Shown here: in pieces, positions 15,561 through 19,458 of the stretch
How positions within the stretch are numbered: position 1 is the first letter of the stretch
How the letters are laid out: the number at the start of each line of letters is the position of its first letter
From: Ktedonobacteraceae bacterium
GTDB taxonomy: Bacteria; Chloroflexota; Ktedonobacteria; Ktedonobacterales; Ktedonobacteraceae
Length of the DNA: 64,000 bases
Direction: 5' to 3'
Assembly (NCBI GenBank): GCA_035653615.1
Contig: DASRBN010000025.1
Coordinates: forward strand, 186,001-250,000
Translations under genes and position numbers: made by a program
Notes under the pieces: generated by a model
Databases searched by the model: none
What the model was told of the DNA's origin: nothing
The model's input: the letters and a program-made list of their open reading frames with translations, nothing else

Positions 15561-16172
15561 ATGCGTGATTTATTGCTGGCAACGACGAATGTGCATAAGC
15601 TAGAGGAATTCCGAGCCATTTTCGCGGATTTGCCGTACAGGTTGCTGTCACTGCAAGATATTCAGTTACAGATGGATGTTGAGGAAACGGGCAGCACCTT
15701 TGCGGAAAATGCAGAGTTGAAGGCGCATACCTATGCCGGGGCTTCGGGCCTGCTCACCCTGGCAGATGATTCGGGCCTGGAAATAGATGCCCTTGAGGGA
15801 GCTCCTGGCGTCTTCTCCGCTCGTTTTGCGGGCAGGGATACATCTTATCAGGAACGTTTCCGTTTGATCCTGGAGCGATTGGAAGGGTTGCCGGTTGAGC
15901 AGCGGGGCGCCCGTTTTCGCTGCGCTATTGCGTTGGCCGAGCCTTCCGGTTATACTCGTATAGTGGAGGGAGTGATTGAGGGTGTAATTGCGGACGCGCC
16001 ACGTGGCGAAAACGGATTCGGTTACGATCCTATTTTCCTGGTGCCTGAACTTGGTATGACGACTGCCGAGCTGGAACCAGGAGATAAGAATCGTATCAGC
16101 CATCGTGGTCGTGCGGCCCAATTGGCTCGCATTCTTCTTAAATACTGGCCCTCACTTGAGGGAAGCCGGTAG
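15561..16172 (+). CDS. rdgB: XTP/dITP diphosphatase (RdgB/HAM1)
   Basis: Hydrolyses non-canonical purine nucleotides such as XTP and dITP to monophosphates, cleaning the nucleotide pool. Family motifs are complete: TTNVHKLEEF, ADDSGLEIDAL, GVFSARFAG, GENGFGYDPIF and KNRISHRGRA. The 203-residue length is normal. GGGAAG lies 5 bases before the ATG. The TAG stop (16170-16172) lies inside a GTAGGGACAG-type interspersed repeat, so the last residue or two may have been set by repeat insertion. It is followed 88 bases later by the exonuclease fusion gene. Confidence 0.93.
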   Translation: MRDLLLATTNVHKLEEFRAIFADLPYRLLSLQDIQLQMDVEETGSTFAENAELKAHTYAGASGLLTLADDSGLEIDALEGAPGVFSARFAGRDTSYQERFRLILERLEGLPVEQRGARFRCAIALAEPSGYTRIVEGVIEGVIADAPRGENGFGYDPIFLVPELGMTTAELEPGDKNRISHRGRAAQLARILLKYWPSLEGSR

Positions 16173-16260: not shown

Positions 16261-19200
16261 ATGTCAAAGCAGCCACCCGTTCGCGTGGCACTTGATCTGG
16301 AAACAACCGGTTTGCATGCTGAACAAGATGCGATACTTGAGGTTGCAGCAGTCAAGTTTCAAGGGGGAACGATACTTGATACGATGGAGACCCTGGTTGC
16401 CCCGGGGCGTTCCATTCCTTTCCGCGTGCAGCGTCTGACCGGCATAACCCCACAACAGGTAGCGGATGCCCCTGGTTTCGAGTCTATTGCACACCGTTTG
16501 CAGCAATTTCTAGGCGATCATCCAATTGTTGGTCATAGCATTCCTTTTGATGCCGGTTTCCTGAGACGGCGCGGCCTGGTGCGCAATAATCCACTCATAG
16601 ATACTTTCGAACTGGCGACTGTACTACTGCCGTCTTTGCCGAGCTATAACCTGGGGCAGGTCGCTAAGGCTCTAGGCGTGCCTCTTGTACCGGGACGGCA
16701 CCGCGCCATGGTTGATACCATCCTCGCAATGAAGGTCTTTCTAGCGTTGGATGAACTCCTGAAGCAGGTCGATATAGGGCTTCTCAACGATCTGGCGAAC
16801 CTTGATGCCCCTCGTTCGTGGCCCCTACTTGGTTTTTTCCGCCAGGAGTGGCGCGAACGCGTGGCAGCGGATGGCATGCAAAATGTTCCCTTGCGCGGTA
16901 ATCTACGTGATCGATTCGCCGCCCAATTAGGTATGGACCCACGCGTTTTATCCTTCGCTATTGCCCGTAGCGAACCATCAACTGCTGAAAACGTCATGCC
17001 GGCAATGCAACCTGCCACATCGTCTTCCACTGTGCCTGAGCAACAGGAGGAAGCGATGCCGGCAACAGAGCATATTACTCCGATCCTGGCAGAGCAGCCT
17101 GCCAGTTATCAAGCGGCTCACCGGGCGGTGCTACAGGCGCTGGAGGAGAGAAGCAGCCTTTTGCTCGAAGTCACGATTGGAGCAAACGATTTTACGCCGG
17201 CTCTGCTCCCTGCATTGCAATGGATTTGCCAGCAGCCCGCAAGCGATGGAAGTTCTGCCGCCTCAACTGAAGCGAGACGTCTTGTCATTGCCTGCGCGAA
17301 TACGCAGGCAGCGCGTCGCTTGATCGAGCATGTCTTGCCGCGCCTGCAAGGGCAGCTTGCGAAACCGGTAAAAGTAGCATATCTTGCTGAGCACGGCGGC
17401 TATCTATGTATTCACCGCTGGTTTGGATCGGCCTTGCGTCGAACCAGTGGTGAGCTCTCCGCGGAGCAGGCGCGTGGTTTAGCAAAATTGGCTCTATGGG
17501 CGCAGCAGACCCTCACCGGTGAGCGCAGCGAGTTGACCATCTTACCACAGGAAATTACAGCCTGGGAACGAATTTGTTCGGGAGTTGAGCGTGTCCCACT
17601 TGCCCTTGCCGACGGGCGTGGCAATACTCCCTACCAGCGCTGCCTCTACCGTAGCAAAGGCTATTGTTTCGTCAGGCGCGCAGAAGAGCGGGTGAATGCG
17701 GCAGATGTTGTTGTAACTACGCATGCCGGGCTGCTAGATGACCTTTCTTCCGAAAACAGCCTGTTGCGTCATGTGGACTGTCGCCTGATCCTGGATGCCG
17801 ATCTGTTGGACGAAGAGTCTGCGCGCTGGAATAATCAAGAACTCGATCATCAGAGCCTGCTCAGGCAATTAAATACAATTGGCATTGAATTGCCCGATGG
17901 TCGTTACCAGGGCCTACTGGCCCTCGCCGCGCCTGCCTTACGCGAGAATGGCCCTGGCGGCCTCTCAACCACTCACACGATAGCGAAAGCGGAACTTGAC
18001 AGCCGCATGCTTGGCTGGTTTCAAACGCTCCGCCAGGCGCGCACGGCCATCGATGCCCTCTTTGTCGCGCTTGCCCAACTCATGCAGGAAGCATCAAGCG
18101 CCGGCAATTCCGGCGGTCCGAACAACAAGGGCAAAGCGACCAGGATGGAGAATGGGCCGCGTTCCGCGAATGCACGGGGCGTCGAACGCGTCGACCAGCC
18201 TTTGCGACTCACTTCCCAGATACGTAATGTTGCCGGCTGGATGGAAGTAGAACACGCGTGGCAACAAGCCGCCCATCGCTTGCAGATGGTCATTGATCTC
18301 GCGCACGAGGCTGAAAAGATCATGCTTACCAGGCAGCGCCCTCGCCATCGCATCGATCCAGGCAGTGGAGAAGACGATTCGGTTGCCTGGGAATTCGCGG
18401 CCCTTGCGGAACGCCTGCGTGCGCAAAAGCGCTTCGGCCAGCAGGCTCTTACATTAAGCGAAAACGGGGGTGGGAGCGGTAATTCTGCAAATAGAGAGGA
18501 TGCCATGGTCTACTGGCTGCGCGTTCCGCCGGCCCCCTTACCTTTTGCGCAGCAGCGCGCAGTAGATTCGGCCTCTCCGGGGTCATCTCCGGCCAGTGTG
18601 CCATCACCGGTGGTGCAGGCCGAGAATTCACCTGTACTCTACGGCCAGCTTGTACAGACTTCCACGCTCTTGAAACGATATATACTGACACCAGGTTCCG
18701 CCGCTATTTTCGCCGGTGCGGCCCTCTCCATAGACAACAACTTTTCATACTATCGCGGGCGCTTCGGCCTCGATGCTGATACCTGTCCTGCTCTTTCCGT
18801 CGTTACCGACCACCAGGAGCAGACCTTGCTGTTTATGCCAAATGACGTGCCGGAGCCAAATATGCCCCAGTACCAGCGGCACCTCGATGAAGCTATAGCG
18901 CAGCTAGCCATCATGCTCGACGGCCAGCTGGTCGTACTCTTCACCTCGTATGCCGCTCTGCGCAGTTCCTATGCAACTGTCAAACCCTTGCTTGAGGCGC
19001 GGGGTATCCTTGTCCTCGGTCATGGCATCGATGGTTCGCCCAGGCAACTCTGGCAACTGTTCTCGGATCAAGAGCGTGTCGTCTTACTTGGCGCGGGCAG
19101 CTTCTGGGATGGGATCGAGGAAGTCAGTCGGCCACCTGCCTGTGTGCTTCTATCGCGCCTTCCCATGCCTGTACTCAACGACCCGCCCATCGCGGCCATT

Positions 19201-19458
19201 GCGGAACAATACTCCGACCAGCTGCACCAGGTCACCGTGCCTATGGCCGCCTTGCGTACCCGCCGCGCCCTTAATCGACTCGCCTGGAGTGGCAACAGGC
19301 GTAATGCCGTCGTCCTCTTTGACCGGCGCATCATCTCCAAGGAATATGGTGCCACCATCCTGAATACATTGCCCCATTGTTCGCAACGGCAGGGCCAGGT
19401 ATCGCATATGCCCGAAATAATACTAGATTGGCTGACGGCTACCGGCTCCTGGGACTAG
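16261..19458 (+). CDS. DEDDh exonuclease fused to a degenerate DinG-like helicase
   Basis: 1,065 residues. The N-terminal ~165 residues form a DnaQ-type 3'-5' exonuclease with all catalytic residues: D12 and E14 (DLETTG), D97 (GHSIPFDAGF), H147 and D152 (GRHRAMVDT). The remainder follows the DinG/XPD helicase plan but lacks the key motifs. Where Walker A should be, residues ~300-318 read LLLEVTIGANDFTPALLPAL with no GKT. The DEAH box position reads LILDADLLDE (~507-516). Cysteines near 439, 461 and 469 resemble part of the iron-sulfur cluster set. The C-terminal motifs survive only as GAGSFWDGIEEV and LFDRRIISKEYG. Active DnaQ-DinG fusions are known in Firmicutes. Here the nuclease looks active and the helicase looks like a non-ATPase scaffold. 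AAAGGAA precedes the ATG. Confidence 0.8.
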   Translation: MSKQPPVRVALDLETTGLHAEQDAILEVAAVKFQGGTILDTMETLVAPGRSIPFRVQRLTGITPQQVADAPGFESIAHRLQQFLGDHPIVGHSIPFDAGFLRRRGLVRNNPLIDTFELATVLLPSLPSYNLGQVAKALGVPLVPGRHRAMVDTILAMKVFLALDELLKQVDIGLLNDLANLDAPRSWPLLGFFRQEWRERVAADGMQNVPLRGNLRDRFAAQLGMDPRVLSFAIARSEPSTAENVMPAMQPATSSSTVPEQQEEAMPATEHITPILAEQPASYQAAHRAVLQALEERSSLLLEVTIGANDFTPALLPALQWICQQPASDGSSAASTEARRLVIACANTQAARRLIEHVLPRLQGQLAKPVKVAYLAEHGGYLCIHRWFGSALRRTSGELSAEQARGLAKLALWAQQTLTGERSELTILPQEITAWERICSGVERVPLALADGRGNTPYQRCLYRSKGYCFVRRAEERVNAADVVVTTHAGLLDDLSSENSLLRHVDCRLILDADLLDEESARWNNQELDHQSLLRQLNTIGIELPDGRYQGLLALAAPALRENGPGGLSTTHTIAKAELDSRMLGWFQTLRQARTAIDALFVALAQLMQEASSAGNSGGPNNKGKATRMENGPRSANARGVERVDQPLRLTSQIRNVAGWMEVEHAWQQAAHRLQMVIDLAHEAEKIMLTRQRPRHRIDPGSGEDDSVAWEFAALAERLRAQKRFGQQALTLSENGGGSGNSANREDAMVYWLRVPPAPLPFAQQRAVDSASPGSSPASVPSPVVQAENSPVLYGQLVQTSTLLKRYILTPGSAAIFAGAALSIDNNFSYYRGRFGLDADTCPALSVVTDHQEQTLLFMPNDVPEPNMPQYQRHLDEAIAQLAIMLDGQLVVLFTSYAALRSSYATVKPLLEARGILVLGHGIDGSPRQLWQLFSDQERVVLLGAGSFWDGIEEVSRPPACVLLSRLPMPVLNDPPIAAIAEQYSDQLHQVTVPMAALRTRRALNRLAWSGNRRNAVVLFDRRIISKEYGATILNTLPHCSQRQGQVSHMPEIILDWLTATGSWD

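Follow-up and report, generated by a model that had tools for sequence, protein, structure and literature searches.

A single-frame ExoDinG gene downstream of rdgB

The window, a 64,000-nucleotide stretch of a Ktedonobacteraceae contig (class Ktedonobacteria, Chloroflexota), carries an open frame of 1065 residues (Table 1). An earlier interpretation made from the letters alone (the sequence-only reading) had described this frame as uninterrupted over more than 900 residues, and indeed it runs as one frame throughout. The encoded protein has an N-terminal DEDDh 3'-5' exonuclease with all five catalytic residues, followed in order by the DinG motor domains with their Fe-S/Arch insert, as judged from the Helicase_C_2 match, the profile alignment described below and a model of motor domain 1 (MD1) of modest confidence. 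This is the architecture of ExoDinG, in which an N-terminal DEDDh exonuclease precedes the DinG helicase domains, as in the DinG proteins of S. aureus (SaDinG), B. subtilis (BsDinG) and L. monocytogenes (PDB 8zef/9ii8); the nearest solved structure by sequence is SaDinG, 8zef. No Pfam model matched MD1 of the window protein, and the NCBIfam models TIGR01407 and NF005981 scored the frame at 289.1 and 314.1 bits, below their cut-offs of 547.7 and 789 bits, respectively.

Table 1. Features of the ExoDinG locus, in positions of the window
Feature	Position	Strand	Basis
RdgB/HAM1 (non-canonical purine NTP pyrophosphatase)	15561..16172	+	Ham1p_like 2.4e-63; 88 bp upstream of ExoDinG ORF
Predicted motorless ExoDinG: DEDDh 3'->5' exonuclease and DinG-type pseudo-helicase, 1065 aa	16261..19458	+	Single open frame, Pfam, profile comparison
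DEDDh exonuclease domain, residues 9-160 (D12, E14, D97, H147, D152)	16285..16740	+	Pfam RNase_T 5.6e-30
Former motif I / Walker A, residues 303-311, EVTIGANDF	17167..17193	+	Ungapped profile alignment to EAGTGxGKS
C383-x-H385: first Fe-S cysteine and Ktedonobacteria-invariant His	17407..17415	+	His in 38/38 rows vs 0/42 outgroup rows
C461 and C469, third and fourth Fe-S cysteines; second (column 445) gone	17641..17667	+	Alignment columns
Former motif II / DEAH, now LDAD, residues 511-514	17791..17802	+	DE in outgroup vs LD in 37/38 Ktedonobacteria
Motor domain 2, Helicase_C_2, residues 882-1039	18904..19377	+	Pfam 4.1e-17; dN/dS 0.007-0.11
Former motif VI, RRALNRLAWS, arginine finger position = W1009	19261..19290	+	R in 41/42 outgroup rows vs W in 38/38 Ktedonobacterial rows

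The upstream gene, rdgB, is the probable operon partner of the window ExoDinG. It adjoins ExoDinG in three of the four families of the order (f1, f3 and f4), with spacings from an 89 bp overlap to a 185 bp gap. A link specific to motor loss was ruled out, since rdgB is not adjacent in family f2 and is adjacent in two relatives with an intact motor (L049 and L090). Thus, the adjacency suggests co-expression and not a cause of motor loss.

The motor motifs are replaced, not displaced

We compared profiles of 17 Ktedonobacterial and 15 intact Chloroflexota ExoDinG proteins, which matched in a single alignment spanning 927 columns (E 8e-174), demonstrating homology along the length of the window protein. 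The alignment was gap-free across LLLEVTIGANDFTPALLPA / LIVEAGTGVGKSMAYLLPA, so that EVTIGANDF pairs with EAGTGxGKS and LDAD with DEAH, and the sequence-only reading had thus placed both substitutions correctly. Column counts were made on 38 Ktedonobacterial rows and 42 other (sampled outgroup) rows. The P-loop lysine was present in 41/42 outgroup copies and in 0/38 Ktedonobacterial rows, and motif I was absent from every Ktedonobacterial copy covering that region. The first two residues of DEAH were D in 42/42 and E in 41/42 outgroup rows, whereas 37/38 Ktedonobacterial rows had LD and none of the 38 had DEAH. Furthermore, three losses had been overlooked earlier: motif III, where TSATL is AGAAL in the window and typically AGxAL in Ktedonobacteria, the motif VI arginine, which has become a tryptophan (Table 1), and one Fe-S cysteine. 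The window protein therefore lacks all four motifs (I, II, III and VI) of an active SF2 (XPD/DinG) motor. In contrast, D12, E14, D97, H147 and D152 of the exonuclease, previously noted as intact, were invariant in the Ktedonobacterial rows covering those positions.

Displaced motifs were ruled out by a search of 43 Ktedonobacterial copies, which revealed no alternative P-loop, DEAH or QxxGRxxR at other sites; the sole regular-expression match was an exonuclease-domain string in two copies. No orthologue of the class was found with an intact motor. Thus, neither of the outcomes that would have told against the sequence-only reading was observed, and the missing motifs are conserved as missing across the class. 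Together, these substitutions indicate that ATP hydrolysis has very probably been lost in Ktedonobacterial ExoDinG.

A second order carries a motorless ExoDinG

One of the sampled outgroup proteins (L103, genome G299) had also lost the motor while its exonuclease was intact by sequence, and the same held for 5/5 genomes, from three genera, of the order to which G299 belongs. In these proteins GTGxGK has become GNDHTR or GSHREK and QGFGRLI has become QAFERLL, with KLPF kept; dN/dS was 0.07-0.11. Motifs were intact in 26/26 other sampled proteins of the same class, including that of G318, the best-scoring relative of G299 outside this second order, and about 96 sampled Chloroflexota proteins outside both motorless groups had an intact P-loop.

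The second order belongs to another class, and genome taxonomy points to two losses of the motor. In the gene tree the second order was placed inside its own class (support 95). With the motif columns removed, a tree separated Ktedonobacteria from the rest at a branch with support 100. The trees come from quick searches, and the majority of the genomes are drafts or MAGs. A single clade of both motorless groups was disfavoured by the tree but not rejected by the AU test, where grouping the second order with Ktedonobacteria gave p 0.165, or 0.322 with fewer classmates. Independent losses are favoured, short of proof.

Nearly all genomes with a motorless ExoDinG have a separate DinG

When genomes were searched with a stand-alone DinG, 19/20 Ktedonobacteria and 5/5 members of the second order proved to have a full DinG apart from ExoDinG, compared to 2/35 of the genomes whose ExoDinG motor is intact, although the genomes are not independent and the association amounts to only two events. 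The separate DinGs that were examined had intact motifs. The sole Ktedonobacterial exception was G033, a draft that is 91% complete, and G321 has kept its motor in spite of a second DinG-like protein. G318, the nearest relative of the second order, has both an intact ExoDinG (L180) and an intact DinG (L210) that is 40% identical to the DinG of the second order. This combination suggests that the stand-alone DinG arrived before the motor was lost.

A Ktedonobacteraceae DinG (G000:C22:73217-76553; L110:1218-4553), as well as L114 and L115, joins an intact helicase to a Ser/Thr-kinase-like domain at its N-terminus, apparently a pseudokinase (HSN for HRD and DFA for DFG), and the stand-alone DinG of families f3 and f4 has 660 residues. 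A kinase-like domain in Ktedonobacterales DinG is noted in PMC11981726, there as C-terminal. We also observed frames of about 1800-2000 residues with DinG-like helicase motifs (G006:C1:2924283-2926442, G009:C47:21037-23142, G321:C1:19370-21454 and G318:C355).

The helicase-derived body is retained with class-specific changes

Three cysteines had been said to remain in the helicase part, and C383, C461 and C469 were invariant in 38/38 rows, while the second of the four was lost in all 38. A review counts three or four cysteines as an FeS domain, and by sequence the window protein falls within this definition. Two residues past the first cysteine, H385 was invariant in Ktedonobacteria and absent from the 42 outgroup rows, and the YLCxHRWFG stretch around it was strongly conserved. 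An invariant histidine in the very region where a cluster cysteine is gone, together with the adjacent rdgB in three of four families, raises the possibility that the helicase body gained a regulatory role, for instance as a sensor serving the exonuclease or as its scaffold for protein interactions, perhaps by means of an altered C-H-C-C metal site and in functional coupling with RdgB. There is a parallel in AddAB, where a helicase-like domain recognises Chi according to PMC4824097, so inactive helicase domains can gain recognition. However, the rdgB adjacency is shared with intact-motor relatives and missing in f2, and in the second motorless order the four cysteines are all present and H385 has no equivalent; we therefore regard a regulatory role as unlikely. 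We are similarly hesitant about a bolder possibility, in which the motor was lost at least twice to give a distinct class of ATP-independent exonucleases with a repurposed body, and in which the Ktedonobacterial features (the C-H-C-C metal site, the HRWFG stretch and W1009) might sense or select substrate ends, possibly with RdgB.

PMC12345164 gives K801, F804, F823, R858 and Y864 as ssDNA contacts of SaDinG motor domain 2. Their equivalents, mapped by alignment, are R966, M969, L988, R1023 and Y1029 in the window protein; R966, R1023 and Y1029 are thus retained, whereas the two phenylalanines are represented by M969 and L988 in the window protein's family. In motor domain 1 the KGR site has changed to AE[R/H]. 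Since these contacts are only partly kept, the helicase body may, but need not, be the DNA-binding scaffold that the sequence-only reading had proposed.

A full-length AlphaFold2 model (nine sequences) reached a pLDDT of only 38.5 and was set aside, and a model of the MD1-Fe-S fragment was of modest confidence (pLDDT 59.9). With that qualification, the fragment still resembled DinG, its best Foldseek matches being 6fwr (probability 1.0) and 8zef (0.92). A DinG-like fold could in principle bind nucleotide or hydrolyse ATP through a non-canonical site; we consider this very improbable, since other residues stand in for the P-loop lysine, DEAH, motif III and the motif VI arginine and no Ktedonobacterial copy has a P-loop elsewhere.

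The gene was carried by 47/47 genomes of class Ktedonobacteria, across four families. Pairwise dN/dS was 0.05-0.21 for the pseudo-helicase and lower for motor domain 2 (Table 1), resembling the values of intact relatives. Furthermore, 13 positions had a class-specific conserved state, including T487, L511, D512, W931, W1009 and N1015, with switches such as R to W1009, DE to LD and N to T487 (T487 in 38/38 rows). This conservation bears out the earlier proposal that selection maintains the protein and its fold while ATP hydrolysis has very probably gone. Decay of the helicase half, with the gene on its way out and only the exonuclease maintained, might be read from the faster evolution of motor domain 1 relative to the exonuclease and from broken copies in the assemblies G001 (runs of N) and G026 (frameshifts), but it is very improbable and was rejected on the class-wide presence of the gene, the low dN/dS of the dead half and the new invariant residues at motif positions. 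In the nearly complete assembly G026 (L117) the frameshifts affect both rdgB and the ExoDinG gene, and they may be sequencing errors.

Discussion

We propose that Ktedonobacterial ExoDinG is a fixed motorless form, whose motor was lost as redundant after a second DinG was acquired and whose exonuclease works 3'->5' without ATP beside a passive helicase body; we put the probability of this reading at about 0.7. At the level of sequence it is based on intact exonuclease residues, class-fixed loss of motor residues, purifying selection and co-occurrence with a separate DinG, from which we infer an active exonuclease, an inactive ATPase, a platform role for the body and the order in which the events came about. 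In the proposed course of events, the lineage would first have acquired a stand-alone DinG helicase; ExoDinG would then have had no further need of its ATPase and lost it, with the DEDDh exonuclease staying under strong selection. Today the protein would most likely degrade single-stranded DNA and/or RNA in the 3'->5' direction without ATP, while what is left of the helicase, mainly motor domain 2 and the Fe-S/arch region, would serve as a passive platform, binding the substrate or positioning it behind the active site and neither translocating nor unwinding.

Work on intact ExoDinG bears on both sides of this proposal. BsDinG K290A degraded ssDNA as the wild type did, and the toxicity of BsDinG overexpression required the exonuclease and not ATP hydrolysis (PMC12525004); likewise, L. 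monocytogenes DinG E465A kept exonuclease activity on RNA and DNA (PMC12774634). As these Walker A and DEAH mutants retain the exonuclease, an ATP-independent exonuclease is plausible in Ktedonobacteria. However, complementation of crosslink sensitivity in S. aureus required both DinG activities (PMC12345164), and the ATPase is therefore needed in some settings. This requirement counts against the motorless-exonuclease reading, as do the restriction to two loss events, the AU p values of 0.17-0.32, the only partial retention of DNA-binding residues, and the genomes G033 and G321.

Ktedonobacterales are already listed among ExoDinG-bearing orders in PMC12345164 and PMC11981726, and a search of the open-licence literature, covering main texts, brought up no publication that describes a motorless ExoDinG in Ktedonobacteria. 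SaDinG uses ATP to unwind DNA and the ATPase activity of BsDinG depends on ssDNA, whereas the window protein has other residues at ATPase motifs I, II, III and VI. The sDinG group of Nostocales and other cyanobacteria is likewise described, in PMC11981726, as DinG-like and without conserved ATP-binding residues, but sDinG has neither exonuclease nor Fe-S domain, whereas the window protein has an exonuclease and Fe-S cysteines. pExoDinG (e.g. of Caulobacter) is likewise an exonuclease-DinG protein with a dead half, but the opposite one, the exonuclease being incomplete and the ATPase site intact. Among Chloroflexota we also noted proteins with an intact motor and no recognisable exonuclease residues (L098, L160, L165, L168, L170, L208 and L209), i.e. 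the opposite loss. The helicase-nuclease subunits AddB and RecC similarly set an inactive helicase-like domain beside a nuclease, although they are Superfamily 1 proteins, act as separate subunits and recognise Chi, and the likeness is offered as an analogy.

The role of the ExoDinG ATPase is disputed, as the BsDinG and Listeria mutants degrade nucleic acid in its absence, yet SaDinG confers crosslink resistance only with it. Some proteins annotated as 'ATP-dependent helicase DinG' are, judging by their motifs, almost certainly not. The natural motorless forms represent cases in which the exonuclease and the helicase-derived body were kept without the motor, apparently when another DinG was available, and motorless ExoDinG thereby offers a testable prediction on the role of each half.
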